Shown in pieces: positions 37,131 to 44,961 of a DNA stretch of 64,000 bases. The stretch is taken from NCBI RefSeq assembly GCF_024362325.1, contig NZ_CP101497.1:2480001-2544000 (forward strand), written 5' to 3'. The DNA comes from Microcella humidisoli (GTDB lineage Bacteria > Actinomycetota > Actinomycetes > Actinomycetales > Microbacteriaceae). Below the pieces are notes generated by a model. That model was not told the DNA's origin and did not search any database. It was given only the letters and a program-made list of their open reading frames with translations. The position numbers were made by a program, and so were the translations under genes. The number at the start of each line of letters is the position of its first letter. Positions within the stretch are counted from its first letter, which is position 1.

Positions 37131-39221
37131 CTAGACGTCGATGCGGTCGCGGTCGAGGCCCTGCCCGGCGATGATGAAGTCTTTGCGGGGGGCGACCTCG
37201 TTGCCCATGAGCAGCTCGAACATGCGCGATGACGCCTCGGCGTCGCTCACGCGCACGCGCCGGAGGGTGCGGTGGGCCCGGCTCATGGTCGTGTCGGCGA
37301 GCTGATCGGCATCCATCTCGCCGAGGCCCTTGTAGCGCTGGATCGGATCCTGGTAGCGCTTTCCCGCCTTCTTGAGCGCCGCGAGCACGCCCTGCAGCTC
37401 GTTCTCGCTGTAGGTGTAGATGGTCTCGTTGGGCTTCGAGCCGGGGTTCATGACGACGACGCGGTGCAGCGGCGGCACGGCGGCGAACACCCGGCCCTCG
37501 TCGATCATGGGCCTCATGTAGCGGAAGAACAGCGTGAGCAGCAGGGTGCGGATGTGCGCGCCATCGACGTCGGCGTCGCTCATGATGATGACCTTGCCGT
37601 AGCGCGCCTGCTCGAGGTCGAAGCTGCGCCCCGAGCCCGCGCCGATGACTTGGATGATCGAGGCGCACTCGGCGTTGCTGAGCATGTCGCTCACCGAGGC
37701 CTTCTGCACGTTGAGGATTTTGCCGCGGATGGGCAGCAGGGCCTGGAACTCGCTGTCGCGGGCGAGCTTCGCGGTGCCGAGGGCGCTGTCGCCCTCGACG
37801 ATGAACAGCTCGCTGCTCGCGACGTCGTTCGACCGGCAGTCGACGAGCTTCGCCGGCAGCGCCGAGCTCTCGAGTGCGTTCTTGCGCCGCTGAGTCTCTT
37901 TGTGGGCGCGCGCCGAGATGCGGCTCTTCATCTCGGCGACGACCTTGTCGAGCACGAGCGCCGTCTGCGCCTTGTCGTCGCGCTTGCTCGAGGCGAAGCG
38001 CTCGGCGAGGCCGCGGGCGATGACGTTCGCAGCGATCGCGCGCACGGCCGGCGTGCCGAGGATCTCCTTCGTCTGCCCCTCGAACTGCGGCTCGGGCAGG
38101 CGCACCGTGAGCACGGCGGTGAGACCCGCGAGCACGTCGTCCTTCTCGAGCTTGTCGGTGCCGGCCTTCAGGCGGCGCGCGTTCTTCTCGACCTCGGCGC
38201 GCAGGAACTTGAGCAGGCCCTGCTCGAAGCCGAGCTGGTGGCTGCCGCCCTTGGGCGTCGCGATGATGTTGACGTACGAGCGGAAGGTCGTGTCGTACCC
38301 GGTCCCCCAGCGCAACGCGATGTCGACGACGCACTCGCGCTCGACCTCGGTCGGCACCATGTGTCCGTTCGCCTGCAGCACGGGAACGGTCTCGGTGAAG
38401 GTGCCGCTGCCCGTGATGCGCCAGGTGTCGGTGAGCGGGGCATCCGGCGCCAGGAACTCGGCGTACTCGCTGATGCCGCCGTCGAACCGGAAGGCCTCGG
38501 TGACCGGTGCCTCGCCGCGCTCGTCGGTGAGCTCGAGCGTGATTCCCGGCACGAGGAAGGCCGTCTGCCGCAGCCGGCCGATGAGCTCGTCGGTGAGGAA
38601 GCTCGCGCCCTTCGTGAAGATCTGCGGGTCGGCCCAGTAGCGGATGCGCGTGCCCGTGACGCCCTTGGCCACCTTCCCGATCGTGCGCAACTCGCTGCCC
38701 GAGACGAACGGTGTGAACGGCGCGTCGGGGCTGGGGCCTTCGGGGCCATCGGCGAACACGCCGGGCTCACCGCGGTGGAACGACATCGCCCACGTCGCGC
38801 CATCGCGGTCGACCTCGACATCGAGACGCGCGCTGAGCGCGTTCACGACGGAGGCACCGACGCCGTGCAGGCCGCCCGACGCGGCGTAGGACCCACCGCC
38901 GAACTTGCCGCCGGCGTGCAGCTTGGTGAACACGACCTCGACGCCGCTCAGCCCCGTCTTGGGCTCGATGTCGACGGGGATTCCGCGCGCGCGGTCGCGC
39001 ACCTCGACGCTGCCATCGGGGTGCAGCCGCAGGTCGATCTGGGTGCCGTGGCCACCGAGCGCCTCATCGACCGAGTTGTCGATGATCTCCCACAGGCAGT
39101 GCATGAGGCCGCGCGAATCGGTCGAGCCGATGTACATGCCGGGGCGCTTGCGCACCGCTTCGAGGCCCTCGAGGACGGAGAGATGGCGGGCGGAGTAGTC
39201 GGAGCTGGGCACGGCATTCAT
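37131..39221 (-). CDS. parE: DNA topoisomerase IV subunit B
   Basis: 696-residue ATPase subunit. GHKL motifs: EIIDNSVDEALGG, GGKFGGGSYAASGGLHGVGASVVNALS; the Toprim domain has IVEGDSALGTAKLARD (EGDSA) and IMSDADVDGAHIRTLLLTLFFRYM (DxD). The ATG at 39221 gives the usual start SSDYSARHLSVLEGLEAVRKRPGMYIGST. Converges with parC. The 186-bp region upstream contains a TTGACA at 39326 without a convincing partner -10. Confidence 0.95.
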   Translation of the reverse strand: MNAVPSSDYSARHLSVLEGLEAVRKRPGMYIGSTDSRGLMHCLWEIIDNSVDEALGGHGTQIDLRLHPDGSVEVRDRARGIPVDIEPKTGLSGVEVVFTKLHAGGKFGGGSYAASGGLHGVGASVVNALSARLDVEVDRDGATWAMSFHRGEPGVFADGPEGPSPDAPFTPFVSGSELRTIGKVAKGVTGTRIRYWADPQIFTKGASFLTDELIGRLRQTAFLVPGITLELTDERGEAPVTEAFRFDGGISEYAEFLAPDAPLTDTWRITGSGTFTETVPVLQANGHMVPTEVERECVVDIALRWGTGYDTTFRSYVNIIATPKGGSHQLGFEQGLLKFLRAEVEKNARRLKAGTDKLEKDDVLAGLTAVLTVRLPEPQFEGQTKEILGTPAVRAIAANVIARGLAERFASSKRDDKAQTALVLDKVVAEMKSRISARAHKETQRRKNALESSALPAKLVDCRSNDVASSELFIVEGDSALGTAKLARDSEFQALLPIRGKILNVQKASVSDMLSNAECASIIQVIGAGSGRSFDLEQARYGKVIIMSDADVDGAHIRTLLLTLFFRYMRPMIDEGRVFAAVPPLHRVVVMNPGSKPNETIYTYSENELQGVLAALKKAGKRYQDPIQRYKGLGEMDADQLADTTMSRAHRTLRRVRVSDAEASSRMFELLMGNEVAPRKDFIIAGQGLDRDRIDV

Positions 39222-39407: not shown

Positions 39408-39632
39408 ATGACGCAGATCACCACCGAGAACCCGACCGTCGCGACCGCGCCGCTCACCGCCCTCGACCGCTGCGACAGCTGCGGCGCCCAGGCCTACGTT
39501 CGGGCGACCCTTGCGACCGGCGAACTGCTGTTCTGCGCCCACCACGCGGCGCGCTTCAAGGAGAGCCTCGCGAGCACGGCCCTGGCCTGGCACGACGAAT
39601 CGAGCCGCCTGCTCGATGAGCGCGGCGCCTGA
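39408..39632 (+). CDS. Small CxxC zinc-ribbon protein (DUF7455 type)
   Basis: 74-residue protein: LDRCDSCGAQAYVRATLATG then LLFCAHHAARF, giving a Cys2 plus Cys-His zinc site, and a C-terminal helix. Such small proteins sit between sigA and parE in many actinobacteria; function unknown. Its stop overlaps the ATG of the alanine racemase-like gene that follows, implying cotranscription. GAGGGG lies before the ATG. Confidence 0.88.
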   Translation: MTQITTENPTVATAPLTALDRCDSCGAQAYVRATLATGELLFCAHHAARFKESLASTALAWHDESSRLLDERGA

Positions 39633-40266
39633 GCCGCCCGGCGTTCGTCGTATCGCGCGCCTCTCGGCCCGCGCCCTCGACGATGCGCTGACCGCGCTGC
39701 TCGCGACCGACGACGCGATCGTCGACCTGCGGGCCGACGGCTACGGCCACGGCGCCGACGAGATCGAGCGACGCGCCCGCGCGCGCGGGATTGACCGCTT
39801 CGTGCGCGATGGCGATGACGGCTCCCCCGACGGCGCGAACGATCACCGGATGCTGGCCTACGGGCTGCATCCGCACCAGCAGCCCGTGCTGAGGCTTGAG
39901 GGCGAGGTCGTGGCCGTGAAGCACGTGCCCGCGGGCACCGCGGTCTCGTACGGCTACCAGTACCGCACGAGCACGGAGGCGACGCTCGCGCTCGTCGGCC
40001 TCGGCTATGCCGACGGCGTGCCGCGCCTCGCCTCGAGCCGCGCGCCCGTGCGTGTCGGCGACACGACCGGTATCGTCGCCGGCCGCATCGCGATGGATCA
40101 GCTCGTCGTCGATCTGGGGCCGGAAGCGGCCGCGGTCGGCGACACGGCCGTGCTGTGGCACGACGCCGCGTCGCTCGCGGCCTGGAGCACGGCGACCGAG
40201 CGCCCGGCCGAGGCGCTGCTCGCCGGGCTCGGGCGCCGCATTCGCCGGCAATGGGTCGAGGCATGA
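39616..40266 (+). CDS. Truncated alanine racemase-like subunit with C-terminal domain and no PLP lysine
   Basis: 216 residues. Residues 10-65 resemble the first strand-helix-strand of the alanine racemase barrel, but the PLP motif reads LRADGYGHG, with Arg39 in place of lysine. The remaining ~150 residues of barrel are missing; it then jumps to the C-terminal beta domain: VKHVPAGTAVSYGYQY with Y112 (equivalent of catalytic Tyr265'), LGYADGVPR and GRIAMDQLVVDLG (M160, D161). These residues normally reach into the partner subunit's active site. ATG overlaps the previous stop; its own stop overlaps the next racemase ATG. Likely a heterodimer partner of that protein; a decaying pseudogene is the alternative. 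Confidence 0.82.
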   Translation: MSAAPEPPGVRRIARLSARALDDALTALLATDDAIVDLRADGYGHGADEIERRARARGIDRFVRDGDDGSPDGANDHRMLAYGLHPHQQPVLRLEGEVVAVKHVPAGTAVSYGYQYRTSTEATLALVGLGYADGVPRLASSRAPVRVGDTTGIVAGRIAMDQLVVDLGPEAAAVGDTAVLWHDAASLAAWSTATERPAEALLAGLGRRIRRQWVEA

Positions 40267-41306
40267 CCGCCGTCGCCGTCATCGACCGCGCGGCGTTCGC
40301 CCGCAATGTGCGGCGTCTCGTCGAGCGCGCCGCACCCGCCGAGGTCATGCTCGCGATCAAGGCCGACGCCTATGGGCACGGCATGCTCGACCTCGCCCCC
40401 GTCGCGCTCGCCGCCGGTGCCCGCTCGCTCGCCGTGCTCGAGATCCCGGCCGCGCTCGCGTTGCGCGAGGCCGGTATCGACTGCCGACTCTTCGCCTGGC
40501 TGCATGGCACGGGCAGCGACTTCGCCGCGGCGATCGCCGCGGGCATCGACCTCGGTGTCTCGGCGCCGTGGCAGCTCGACGCCATCGCCTCGGCCGCCAG
40601 CACGGCACGTCCCGCCCGCGTGCACCTCAAGATCGACACCGGGCTGCGGCGCAACGGCGCGCTGCCCGAGCAGTGGCCCGCGCTCGTGCGGCAGGCTCGC
40701 GAACTCGCCGAGACCGGCCGCATCGTCATCGACGGCATCTGGTCACACCTCGCCGACGCCTCGGTCGAGGCCGACGACGCCGCGATCGCCGTGTTCGAGG
40801 CCGCCATCGCGACCGCCGAGGCGCTCGGCGTCTCGCCGCCCCTCCGGCACCTCGCCGCGAGCTCGGCGGGCTGGCGCGAGCCGCGCGCGCGGTTCGATCT
40901 CGTGCGCTTCGGCATCGCCGCCTACGGCGTCTCGCCCTTCGACGACCGTTCGGGGCTCGATCTCGGCCTCGAGGCCGTCATGACCCTGCGCACGACGGTG
41001 ATGGATGCCGCCGCGCCGAGCGGGCGGTCCTGGATCGCGGCGGGCTACGCCGACGGCGTGCCGGCGGCGGCGCAGGGGGCCGAGGTGTCGATCGACGGCC
41101 ATCGGTGCGCGGTCGAGGCCGTCGAGGTGGATCGCACGCTCGTCGTCTCGCCCCCCTCGGTCGAACCCGGCGCTGTCGTCACCGTCTTCGGCGAACCGGC
41201 GGCGGGCGTGCCGAGCGCCGAGGATTGGGCGCGCTGGAGCCGCACGATCGGCGATGAGATCCTCACCGGAGTTCCTGCCCGGGTACCGCGCAGCGCGGTC
41301 GGCTAG
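40263..41306 (+). CDS. alr: Alanine racemase lacking the catalytic-tyrosine segment
   Basis: 347-residue fold type III PLP enzyme. The barrel is complete: PLP lysine K33 in IKADAYGHG, Y37, KIDTGLRRNG (K123, R130), SHLADAS (H162), SSAG and RFGIAAYG (R215, phosphate loop). The C-terminal domain is degenerate: the VSYGxxY segment with the second catalytic base (Tyr265') is deleted between TLRTTVMDAAAP and GYADGVP, and the MDQ motif reads VDR. Alone it lacks the second catalytic base; the overlapping upstream gene encodes exactly the missing parts. D-Ala supply for peptidoglycan is the expected role, but another D-amino acid is possible. Confidence 0.88.
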   Translation: MTAVAVIDRAAFARNVRRLVERAAPAEVMLAIKADAYGHGMLDLAPVALAAGARSLAVLEIPAALALREAGIDCRLFAWLHGTGSDFAAAIAAGIDLGVSAPWQLDAIASAASTARPARVHLKIDTGLRRNGALPEQWPALVRQARELAETGRIVIDGIWSHLADASVEADDAAIAVFEAAIATAEALGVSPPLRHLAASSAGWREPRARFDLVRFGIAAYGVSPFDDRSGLDLGLEAVMTLRTTVMDAAAPSGRSWIAAGYADGVPAAAQGAEVSIDGHRCAVEAVEVDRTLVVSPPSVEPGAVVTVFGEPAAGVPSAEDWARWSRTIGDEILTGVPARVPRSAVG

Positions 41307-41330: not shown

Positions 41331-42086
41331 CTAGACGGCGACGCCGGGGCGGCCGAGGCGCTCGGCGATCGCCGCGCGGGCGCGACGAGCACGCTCGTCG
41401 ACTTGGGCGATGCGATCGTCGGCCTCGGGCAGTCCCCGCCCGTGGCGGGCCAGCGCGGCGACGAGCAGCTCGTCGGCGAGGAACGGGTTCATGGGCAGTA
41501 CGGGCCCGCCGAGGTGGGTGCCGATGAGGGCGCCGAGCCGCACGCCCTCACCGCGGTCGGCGCCATCGGCCGTGCCGGTGTTACCCGGGCCGCGATCGAG
41601 CACCGTGAGCGGATCCGCGTCGTGCACGTCGACCGACACCCCGTGGTTGACGAAGCCCGCGAGCCGGCCGTCGGCCCGCGGAACGCCGAGCGCTTCACCG
41701 ACCGCCCGCGAGCGGGCATCCCGCACCGTGATCGGCAGCAGGCCGAGCCCCTCGTGCGGGCGACCCTCAAGATCGACGATGCGCTGCGCGAACAGGTGCA
41801 TGCCCGCTCCGATGGCGATCATCGGCACGCCGGTTGCCGCCCACTCGCGCAGCAGCGGTCCGTGCTCGCGAGCGTCGGGCAGCACGGCATCACGCGCCGA
41901 ACGCGCGCCGCTGCCCACGTGCACGAGATCGGCAGAGTCGGGCAGGGAATCTCCGGGCGCGACGTCGACGATCGTGACCGACACCCCGCGCCATTCGAGT
42001 CGACGACGCAGAGCGAGCACGTTGCCGCGGTCGCCGTTGAGCCCGAGCTCGGTCGGGTAGAGGTGCACGATGCGCAGCTCGGTCAT
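41331..42086 (-). CDS. gatD: GatD-like amidotransferase subunit without nucleophile cysteine
   Basis: 251 residues of the CobB/CobQ-like class I glutaminase fold as in GatD of the lipid II isoglutaminyl synthase: VHLYPTELGLNGDRGNVLAL at the N-terminus and GFVNHGVSV with the catalytic His (H148). The nucleophile elbow, normally CGGxQ, reads GAGMH (residues 93-97), so the catalytic cysteine is Gly. The whole protein contains no cysteine. It therefore should not hydrolyse glutamine. ATG overlaps the stop of the murT-like gene, so the pair is coupled. The fold may act as a structural or regulatory partner. Confidence 0.85.
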   Translation of the reverse strand: MTELRIVHLYPTELGLNGDRGNVLALRRRLEWRGVSVTIVDVAPGDSLPDSADLVHVGSGARSARDAVLPDAREHGPLLREWAATGVPMIAIGAGMHLFAQRIVDLEGRPHEGLGLLPITVRDARSRAVGEALGVPRADGRLAGFVNHGVSVDVHDADPLTVLDRGPGNTGTADGADRGEGVRLGALIGTHLGGPVLPMNPFLADELLVAALARHGRGLPEADDRIAQVDERARRARAAIAERLGRPGVAV

Positions 42087-43363
42087 GCGCCGCCCTCCAG
42101 GTCGAGGTAGCCCATGCGCAGGCGCAGCTCCATCATGAGCTCGTAGTTGATGACGGCGACCTTGGGGCCGTCGCTCGGCTCGGGAAGGGCGAGGAAGGCG
42201 TCGACCGCGGCAGGGAACTCTTCGATGACCGCCCCCACCTCGATGCCCTCGTAGGCGAGCCGCGTGGCCCACTGCCAGGCCTTCGTCCCCGTCACGATGT
42301 CGACGTGGTCGAGCGTCGAGAGGTCGGTGTCGTAGATCCACGAGGGGTCGGGCGTGCCCTCGTCGACGGCGACCATGACGCGCTGCGGCACGCGGCCGAG
42401 CGCGTCGAGGTTGAGCTGCAGGCTCGGCGGGTTCTTCATCATCACGAGCTCGATCTGCTGCCCTCGAGCGTCGAGGATTTCGCCGCGCCCGTAGACCGTG
42501 TCGAGGCCCGCGAAGGCCGATTCGGCGGTCGCGCGGTCGAATTGGGCGCCGAGGAGGCTGCGGGCGGTCGCGAGCGCAGCCGCGGCGTCGACGGCGTAGT
42601 GCAGTCCGCGAGCAGGCAGGGCGATGGATGCGCGCTCGCCCCCGACCGCGATCGACGCCATCGTGCCCTCCACCTGCAGCACGACGACCGAGGCCTCGGG
42701 CAGCGCCGGCCGTTCGGGGCTCGCGCCCGTCGGGGTCGCGCGCGGTGCCGCGGCGACGCCGTGGGGACTCGCTGCGAGCGCCTCGGGCGCGACGTCGAAG
42801 ACGACGACCTCTTGGTCGGCGCGCGACTCGCGCCCGAGCGCGGCCGTGTTGAGGTCGGCCGCGTTCACGATGACGCGACGACGCGCGGCGTCGCGGATGC
42901 GCTCGAGCATGCCGTACACCCGGTCGGGCTCGTGGAACCGGTTGAGCTGGTCGATCTGCAGGTTGAGCAGCAGGAGGTCGGTGGGCGCGAGGCGGTCGGC
43001 GAGGCCCACCCCGTACGCCTCATCGACCTCGAGGACGGCGATGTCGTCGCGCACCCGCCCGTCGAGCGGCACCGAGGCGAGCAGAGCCGACGCGATGCCC
43101 TGCGGCAGATTGGCCCCGCTCGGGTTGGTGAAGACCCGCATGCCGTGGGCGCGCAGCACGCCGACGAGCATGTTCGTCGTCGTCGACTTGCCGTTCGAGC
43201 CCGTGACGAAGACGACGCCGAGCGGCAGCCCGCCGAGCGCGTGCTCGAGGAATCGCGGGGCGATGCGCAGGGCGATGTTGCCCGGGATCGCCGAGCCGCC
43301 GCCGCGCAGGCGGGCGACGACGCGCACGGCCCGCCCGACGAGCACTGCCAGCCGGATGCGCAC
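42083..43363 (-). CDS. murT: MurT-like Mur ligase without zinc ribbon
   Basis: 426-residue Mur-ligase-family protein. The ATPase core is intact: VTGSNGKSTTTNML P-loop (residues 54-63), NPSGANLPQGI, LEVDEAYG, NLQIDQLNRFHEPDR, and the ligase domain MMKNPPSLQLNL and DPSWIYDTDLS (D345 region). Canonical MurT has a four-cysteine zinc ribbon inserted in the central domain; here residues 190-250 are Ala/Pro-rich and the entire protein has no cysteine. It presumably still activates the D-Glu carboxylate of a peptidoglycan precursor. GTG start 9 bp after the sigA stop suggests read-through from sigA. Confidence 0.87.
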   Translation of the reverse strand: MRIRLAVLVGRAVRVVARLRGGGSAIPGNIALRIAPRFLEHALGGLPLGVVFVTGSNGKSTTTNMLVGVLRAHGMRVFTNPSGANLPQGIASALLASVPLDGRVRDDIAVLEVDEAYGVGLADRLAPTDLLLLNLQIDQLNRFHEPDRVYGMLERIRDAARRRVIVNAADLNTAALGRESRADQEVVVFDVAPEALAASPHGVAAAPRATPTGASPERPALPEASVVVLQVEGTMASIAVGGERASIALPARGLHYAVDAAAALATARSLLGAQFDRATAESAFAGLDTVYGRGEILDARGQQIELVMMKNPPSLQLNLDALGRVPQRVMVAVDEGTPDPSWIYDTDLSTLDHVDIVTGTKAWQWATRLAYEGIEVGAVIEEFPAAVDAFLALPEPSDGPKVAVINYELMMELRLRMGYLDLEGGA

Positions 43364-43372
43364 GGGGTCGGC

Positions 43373-44845
43373 CTACTCGAGGTAGTCGCGCAGCGCCTGC
43401 GAGCGCGAGGGGTGCCGCAGCTTGGCCATCGTCTTCGACTCGATCTGGCGGATGCGCTCGCGCGTGACCCCGAAGGTGTCGCCGATCTGATCGAGCGTCT
43501 TCGGCATGCCGTCGCCGAGGCCGAAGCGCATGCGGATGACGCCGGCCTCGCGCTCGGAGAGCGAATCGAGCAGGCTCTCGAGCTGCTTCTGCAGCATCGT
43601 GAAGCCCACGGCGTCGGCCGGAACGACGGCCTCGGTGTCTTCGATGAGGTCGCCGAACTCGCTGTCACCGTCTTCGCCGAGCGGCGTGTGCAGCGAAATC
43701 GGCTCGCGGCCGTACTTCTGCACCTCGATGACCTTCTCGGGGGTCATGTCGAGCTCGCGGCTCAGCTCTTCCGGCGTGGGCTCGCGCCCGAGGTCCTGCA
43801 GCATCTGACGCTGCACGCGGGCGAGCTTGTTGATGACCTCGACCATGTGCACGGGAATGCGGATGGTGCGGGCCTGGTCGGCCATGGCGCGCGTGATCGC
43901 CTGACGGATCCACCACGTGGCATACGTCGAGAACTTGAAGCCCTTGGTGTAGTCGAACTTCTCGACCGCGCGGATGAGACCGAGGTTGCCCTCTTGAATC
44001 AGGTCGAGGAACTGCATGCCGCGGCCGGTGTAGCGCTTGGCGAGCGAGACCACGAGACGCAGGTTGGCGCCGAGCAGGTGGTTCTTCGCGCGCTGGCCGT
44101 CGCGGGCGACCCAGGAGAGGTCACGACCGAGGGCCGAGCGCTTCTCCTTCTCGGTCATCGTCGAGAGCTTCTCCTCGGCGAAGAGGCCCGCCTCGATGCG
44201 CATGGCGAGCTCGACCTCCTCCGCGGCGTTGAGCAGCGGGACCTTGCCGATCTGCTTCAGGTAGTCCTTGACCGGGTCAGCCGTCGCGCCCGTGATGGTC
44301 GAGGAGTAGACGGGAACCTCGTCGTCGTCATCGGTGTTCGAGATGACGATCGCGCCCGTCGGCAGGTCGCCCGCCGATCCCGTGTCCTTCTCGTCGTCGT
44401 CATCATCGCCGGTGTCGTCGGCGTCGGCATCAGCGTCCTCGACCACCACCACGACCTCGGGGTCGATCTCGCCCTCGGCGACGACGGCCTCGACATCGGG
44501 CTCGACGGCATCGAGGTCGACCTCGACCTCATCATCACCCTCGGCCGCGGCACCCGCGGGTGAGGCCGCCTTCTTCGCCGCCGCGCGCTTGGTGGCAGCG
44601 GGAGCTGCGGCGGCAGGAGCCTTCGCGGCCGCCTTCGCGGGCGCGGCCTTCGCTGCGGGAGCCTTCGCGGCCGCAGTCTTCGCGGTCGTGGTCTTGGCGG
44701 GCGCTGCCTTCGTGGCCGTGGTCTTGGCGGCCGTGGTCTTGGCGGCTGCAGTCTTCGCGGTCGTGGTCTTCGACGCCGGGGCCGTCGCGCCGGCGGTCGT
44801 CGCCGCGGGCTCGGCGGTCGTGCTGGTGGTCGCTCGGGCAGCCAT
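43373..44845 (-). CDS. sigA: Primary RNA polymerase sigma factor
   Basis: 490-residue group 1 sigma-70 factor. Residues 1-110 are Ala/Lys/Thr-rich ([17 protein letters not shown] pattern), 115-180 very acidic (e.g. [12 protein letters not shown]), then region 1.2 [16 protein letters not shown], region 2 [27 protein letters not shown] and [19 protein letters not shown], region 3, and region 4 [32 protein letters not shown] 44845 with AGAGGGG upstream. The 139-bp leader contains GATAAT on the minus strand at 44967-44962, a possible -10. Confidence 0.97.
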
Positions 44846-44961
44846 GGGGCCCCTCTTTTCGCGTTCTGCGGGCAGTACAACGACCCATGTCAAGTCGCTG
44901 CGGCGCGCCGACCCGCGGAAGCGGAGTGCGCGCCCGGCGTCCGACCGGGTCGTGAACCTTC

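Follow-up and report, generated by a model that had tools for sequence, protein, structure and literature searches.

The window analyzed here, a stretch of 64,000 nucleotides from Microcella humidisoli, carries two overlapping genes, U and D, whose sequences suggest that their products very probably form, as an obligate heterodimer, a PLP-dependent amino-acid racemase of fold type III in which a single composite active site is built from both chains. Alanine racemase is the textbook homodimer and a drug target (D-cycloserine). In published structures, one monomer contributes Lys39, Tyr43, Ser204, Arg219, and Tyr354 to a given site, and the other adds Tyr265', Tyr284', and Arg290' (PMC3485190, PMC4517790, PMC3245724). 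In the proposed heterodimer, D would supply the PLP barrel (internal-aldimine Lys39, Tyr43, Arg136, His166, Ser204, Arg219), and U would supply, across the interface, the second catalytic base Tyr265', entry/carboxylate Tyr284', Arg290', Met312', and Asp313'. The second site would be out of use, and we propose that the barrel of U and the Tyr265 loop of D decayed because that site no longer served.

Table 1 The U/D gene pair and its neighbors in the window
Feature	Position	Strand	Remark
gyrB/parE-like topoisomerase subunit	37131..39200	-	conserved neighbor, divergent
DUF7455 gene	39408..39632	+	overlaps U start by 17 nt; possibly first gene of the operon
U, small subunit	39616..40266	+	ATG 39616, TGA 40264-40266; 216 aa including Met
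ATGA, D start codon over U stop codon	40263..40266	+	read directly
D, large subunit	40263..41306	+	ATG 40263, TAG ending 41306; 347 aa
gatD-like glutamine amidotransferase	41334..42080	-	frequent neighbor, convergent here
murT-like Mur ligase	42083..43363	-	frequent neighbor
Principal sigma factor gene (sigA/rpoD)	43373..44893	-	conserved neighbor

U consists of a remnant of the barrel start (DLRADGYGHG, with Arg in place of the PLP Lys) and a complete racemase C-domain; Pfam finds Ala_racemase_C alone (residues 90-211 of the translation without Met, P0001), which bears out an earlier note, made from the letters of this stretch, that most of the barrel is missing. Its C-domain retains Tyr265', Tyr284', Arg290', Met312', and Asp313', the residues that act in the partner's site, and Glu stands at the position of Tyr354, a PLP-phosphate and specificity residue of a subunit's own site; the PLP barrel is lost. 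D matches Ala_racemase_N in full (7-225) and the C-domain more weakly (256-344). Its barrel is complete, with K33, Y37, R130, H162, S200, and R215, and its C-domain has the Tyr265 loop (VSYGxxY segment) deleted, Met312 lost, and VDR instead of MDQ, with Asp at specificity position Tyr354 (TIGDEI). All residues that had been named in the earlier note (R39, Y112, M160, and D161 in U; those listed for D except S200) are present as claimed, and the missing VSYGxxY segment and the change of MDQ to VDR are seen in the sequence. In the window pair, the PLP lysine occurs in D only and the catalytic Tyr265 in U only; no single polypeptide has both. The losses had been called exactly complementary: the same split recurs in 64 typed pairs, but the window D still has Tyr at the 284 position and Asp (of VDR) at 313, and the loss of trans residues is not total. 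The claimed overlap of start and stop is the ATGA common to both genes, which suggests translational coupling of U and D.

Both proteins score below the NCBIfam cut-off of 168 for TIGR00492 over the whole protein (U 102.4 bits, D 162.4 bits), and both are predicted to fold confidently when each chain is folded singly (pLDDT 94.5 and 93.2), with the alanine-racemase fold. Among PDB sequences, D matches alanine racemases best (E 9.1e-52) and lysine racemase at 5e-11; Lyr and Bar are not its closest sequence relatives there. Sources that name proteins of the U and D types call them 'alanine racemase', 'alanine racemase C-terminal domain-containing protein', or 'hypothetical protein'.

The partition is conserved well beyond the window. 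We searched 60 relatives, 397 family genomes that represent 76 genera (the matches being taken from a shortened list), and further selected genomes; 80 loci were fetched, all for a split or tandem match pattern except one, the canonical alr of the window's genome. Typing at 12 active-site positions covered 79 fetched loci and the window, with L089 of G028 left out, and once the frame-broken genomes G020, G400, and G034 had been dropped it yielded 64 units each of D and U and 24 full-length ones, the 64 pairs representing 27 genus codes in the family as counted from the survey tables. Every typed unit was full, D, or U, except two that are without both Lys39 and Tyr265 and are pieces of frame-broken genes, and a U lies beside the D in every typed locus. 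The D and U classes are defined by Lys39 and Tyr265, and the counts of those two residues are not independent evidence. The remaining positions sort in the same way. Among the 64 D, R136, H166, and S204 (S/T) are present in 64/64, Y43 and R219 in 63/64 each, and M312 in 1/64, and the trans residues are partly kept (Asp313 36/64, Tyr/Phe284 24/64, Arg290 5/64). Among the 64 U, Y284 (Y/F), M312, and D313 (D/N, two of them N) are present in 64/64 and R290 in 63/64, and the barrel residues are mostly gone (Y354 0, Y43 2, R136 1, H166 0, S204 6, R219 5). Sixteen more pairs from organism-titled genomes fit this pattern, 15 from Microbacterium (14 genomes) and 1 from Marisediminicola senii, as do database proteins found by similarity: the 120 listed U proteins all have Tyr265, Met312, and Asp313, and the 120 listed D proteins all have Lys39, His166, and Arg219, none with Tyr265 and 3 with Met at 312.

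The distribution is uneven at close range. Beyond the window's own genome, 25 Microcella genomes were searched and 11 have a pair (the D of G020 is frame-broken); in Microbacterium the pair is present in 10 of 14 genomes and absent in 4. Among the 14 Microcella genomes in which no pair was found, two, 71% complete, are without any racemase match. In G097 a D-like match is accompanied by a very short U-like match (profile matches, untyped). The order-wide control of 147 genomes of other families mostly gave one match (two genomes gave none, and G045 and G522 gave three), with no U/D pattern seen among the rows listed. One Microbacterium sufflavum genome holds two separate U/D pairs (L278 and L279). 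The earlier note had asked whether relatives show strict co-occurrence and a separate canonical alr, and had named a canonical alr elsewhere, with the pair absent in close relatives, as speaking against its idea. Co-occurrence holds for every typed D, but there is a canonical full-length alr beside tsaE in the window's 2.65-Mb genome (G000:C1:1412049-1413107) and, with the 14/25 pair-less genomes, this goes part of the way against the idea as it was put.

Within Microcella, both genes lie in the purifying range, U with a dN/dS of 0.18-0.41 over 21 comparisons and D with 0.26-0.44 over 15. By domain, the median ω of D is 0.30 for the barrel and 0.42 for the C-domain, and that of U is 0.28 for the C-domain and 0.34 for the remnant (descriptive medians, each from six genomes and 15 comparisons), whereas the control, six canonical alr of the genus from mostly other genomes, shows little difference (0.29 for barrel and 0.31 for C-domain). 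This domain-wise pattern is what would be expected if only the barrel of D and the C-domain of U form a working site. The frame breaks at the G020 and G400 loci and the patchy presence within the genus could be taken to mean that U and D are pseudogene remnants of a decaying duplicate, different parts having been lost by chance. We reject this explanation, which is hardly credible in view of the same partition in 64 pairs across 27 genera and the purifying selection on both genes, and the conserved 4-nt overlap and the confident predicted folds of both chains likewise speak against it; the original argument that random decay would not produce such losses is upheld on the first two grounds.

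The canonical Alr of the window's genome has a complete C-domain, and D might pair with such canonical subunits while U served as a regulator or decoy in the manner of an antizyme inhibitor. We regard this as very improbable: U adjoins D in every typed locus and is fused with it in one frame in 15 loci, the D/U pattern also occurs in genomes without another racemase match, and U keeps Met312 in 64/64, in addition to the Tyr265 that it has by class definition. The natural D-U fusions at those 15 loci lend indirect support to a physical U-D complex, and we infer from the sequence patterns a heterodimer that would assemble and be active as such. Fold type III also includes decarboxylases, which would accommodate an altered chemistry, e.g. 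that of a decarboxylase or peptide epimerase, instead of free amino-acid racemization; this seems quite unlikely, as both racemization bases, Lys39 and Tyr265', are kept, one per chain (which follows from the class definitions and the pairing). Of the heterodimeric alanine racemase that had first been proposed, the one-site heterodimer is strongly supported by co-occurrence, cis/trans residue sorting, 4-nt overlaps, fusions, and domain-wise selection, but the word alanine is doubtful, with a canonical alr elsewhere and Asp at 354 in D.

The pairs fall into two kinds at two loci. Kind 1, that of the window, is defined by Asp or Glu at 354 in D and comprises 45 pairs (30 Asp, 15 Glu). At least one of gyrB/parE, DUF7455, and sigA is present in 45/45 of the fetched stretches, with a DUF7455 match in 44/45 and a murT/gatD match in 28/45; the start codon of the downstream gene lies in an exact 4-nt overlap in 40/45 and within -40 to +30 in 4, with neither in G062. 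Kind 2 has Tyr354 and comprises 19 pairs, with tsaE in 19/19 stretches; here D precedes U, and the two share a single open frame in 15 pairs and occupy separate frames in 4 (Pfam was run on 8 of the 15 fusions). In g66, both of the 2 proteins scanned are triple fusions of D, U, and TsaE (t6A ATPase) in one open frame (L122:3686-6055 and L124:3688-5952). Full-length tandems at 11 loci also lie with tsaE, the first copy having Tyr354 and the second Asp/Glu354; in the first, Tyr354 copy of L083, L170, and L171, Asn replaces Asp313 (AMN). Intermediates are found in G033, G120, and G158, where U keeps much of the barrel and the lysine is gone.

These arrangements suggest an origin in tandem full-length racemases, a Tyr354 copy followed by an Asp/Glu354 copy, which would have undergone reciprocal degeneration. 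In the tree built from the barrel, a branch (0.99; SH-aLRT 95) has all the Asp/Glu354 racemases, 45 of them D and 11 full-length, on one side, and the 354 state changes once, that of split versus full-length six times. A single origin of all 64 D is rejected on this tree (lnL difference 182, p-AU 3.1e-7), the D group of the topology test having been set by residues after the FastTree tree had been seen. For the 19 D of the Tyr354 type, one common origin is compatible with the data (p-AU 0.29), and separate origins of these would follow from the best tree alone. In g91 (G117, G170) both kinds are present with no other racemase match, and the C-domain of the kind-2 U clusters with those of the full-length second copies of Asp/Glu type (0.96, in a C-domain tree that is short and weakly supported), as would be expected if the same ancestral tandem had degenerated in mirror image. 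A fuller scenario, which we hold as tentative and doubtful in its entirety, would have tandem racemases split more than once, within this one bacterial family, into reciprocal half-enzymes. In kind 1, U would descend from the upstream copy and D from the downstream Asp/Glu354 copy, and the resulting heterodimeric diamino-acid racemase would produce the D-Orn, D-Lys, or D-DAB bridge residue of group-B peptidoglycan, with a MurT-like ligase encoded nearby as a candidate for attaching that residue. The alr-tsaE locus would show the mirror image (upstream D, downstream U), with heterodimeric or single-chain alanine racemases that replace the canonical enzyme.

The canonical alr rules out the pair as the only alanine racemase of the window's genome, and the pair is therefore probably not needed there for D-Ala. 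Since Asp/Glu replaces Tyr354, a canonical alr stands elsewhere, and murT/gatD-like genes are often nearby, we consider the chances about even that the kind-1 pair is a diamino-acid (Orn, Lys, or DAB) racemase for the D-diamino acid of group-B peptidoglycan. An acidic residue at 354 would suit the second amino group of such a substrate. In the sections of PMC3485190 bearing on specificity, Tyr354 narrows the entry for alanine; the position is occupied by Ala in Bar and by Thr in lysine racemase, where a docked model shows the Thr touching the side-chain nitrogen of the lysine substrate. The MurT- and GatD-like proteins of the window (41334-43363) score far under the NCBIfam cut-offs (MurT 105 against 800, GatD 94.7 against 450). 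In group-B walls the bridge is attached at the D-Glu alpha-carboxyl, and the role of these two proteins may therefore differ from amidation. We know of no gene for the D-diamino acid step of group-B peptidoglycan, and none appeared in the titles and abstract openings of the literature searched; if the Asp/Glu354 kind does make this residue, it would fill that missing biosynthetic step.

The heterodimer may also be real and yet no more than another alanine racemase, or one of broad specificity, a reading to which we would give somewhat less than even credence. Its fold and the best sequence matches of D are those of alanine racemases, Tyr354-type D-U genes occupy the alr-tsaE locus, where the canonical alr stands elsewhere, and G062 (0.93 Mb; 927,303 bp) yielded no racemase of this family other than an Asp354 pair, which may make D-Ala there. 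Weighing against it are the canonical alr of the window's genome, the grouping of the typed Asp/Glu354 racemases in one clade with a single change of the 354 state, and the description of Tyr354 as setting alanine specificity in the part of PMC3485190 concerned.

In some genera the kind-2 Tyr354 D-U genes at the alr-tsaE locus stand in for the canonical alr. In a set of 27 genomes selected because their best scores were low, 22 (17 of them with residues typed) have no racemase match outside D/U pieces, save weak partial matches in G067 and G423, and one extra full-span match each was found in the other 5/27 (G114, G208, G319, G359, and G388). Ddl-family matches occur in 19/19 genomes tested, and at least two class-IV aminotransferase (PF01063) matches in 17/18 genomes tested, the window's genome being outside this test. 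An extra aminotransferase could be a D-amino-acid transaminase, which weakens the case for D-U as the necessary source of D-Ala in genomes lacking canonical alr. G167, which has the fused gene only and the single class-IV aminotransferase match, is the cleanest case of D-U alone and favors an alanine or broad substrate; where D-U stands alone, the kind-2 enzyme is likely the alanine racemase.

The correlation of the pair with wall chemotype is mixed. The M. lacticum clade has L-Lys, and the pair-less G337 and G408 hold a canonical Alr near M. lacticum-clade names (query from G408). In favor of a link, the pair is present in M. testaceum, M. sufflavum, and M. hydrocarbonoxydans, clades or strains with D-ornithine in the relevant passages of PMC10757982, and in M. 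oxydans, a close neighbor studied there, and Compostimonas, given as L-DAB (B1) in an excerpt of PMC7033078, has one racemase match only. Against it, M. gubbeenense (L-Lys in the same portion of PMC10757982) has a pair with Glu354, and three genomes of Cryobacterium (genus with DAB, B2gamma, in that excerpt of PMC7033078) have one racemase match only. Among the 37 of 80 loci listed, no pair was found for M. thalli, Galbitalea, Salinibacterium, Leifsonia Root4, Okibacterium, Pseudoclavibacter soli, Agromyces salentinus, Microcella alkalica, or four genomes of other families. The available portion of PMC6113628 contains nothing on Microcella.

Compared with homodimeric Alr/DadX (TIGR00492; S. 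lavendulae 1vfh, G. stearothermophilus 1sft), U/D has the same fold, domain order, and PLP lysine and would share the two-base mechanism and a site built from two chains, but the chains are two different ones, one site would be kept and one dismantled, and the window D has Asp for Tyr354. Lyr, Bar, and BsrV share the alanine-racemase fold, and 354 is changed in Lyr and Bar as in the window D; Lyr and Bar, however, are homodimers with Thr/Ala, not Asp/Glu, at this position, and are 22-24% identical to D in structural alignment. In the trypanosome prozymes (S-adenosylmethionine decarboxylase/prozyme, deoxyhypusine synthase DHSc/DHSp) and ODC-antizyme inhibitor, duplication has led to a dead or degenerate paralog that pairs with an active one. 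U/D would resemble the prozyme systems in this pairing and differs in that the half of the catalytic residues missing from U is not the half missing from D; neither chain alone could form a complete site. Engineered ODC cross-complementation, where two complementary point mutants restore one site in a heterodimer, matches U/D in fold type III and in having one good site per heterodimer, but was made in the laboratory, whereas that of U/D would have been fixed by evolution. The phrase 'heterodimeric alanine racemase' was not found in the literature searched, and titles and abstract openings retrieved for alanine racemase with heterodimer, split, duplication, or Microbacteriaceae, or for ornithine racemase in this group, described no such system. 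Living relatives hold full-length tandems, part-degraded pairs, split pairs, and fusions, an experimental series for the passage from duplicated homomers to obligate heteromers.

Microbacteriaceae also contain another type of full-length racemase, which has His at 354 (L176, L291, L292, and L293; Gln in L290). In G319 and G388 a Ddl-family match lies within about 500 bases after such an extra racemase match (the one in G388 is untyped), and a His354-type racemase near a Ddl-family gene could possibly belong to a VanT-like or D-Ser pathway.
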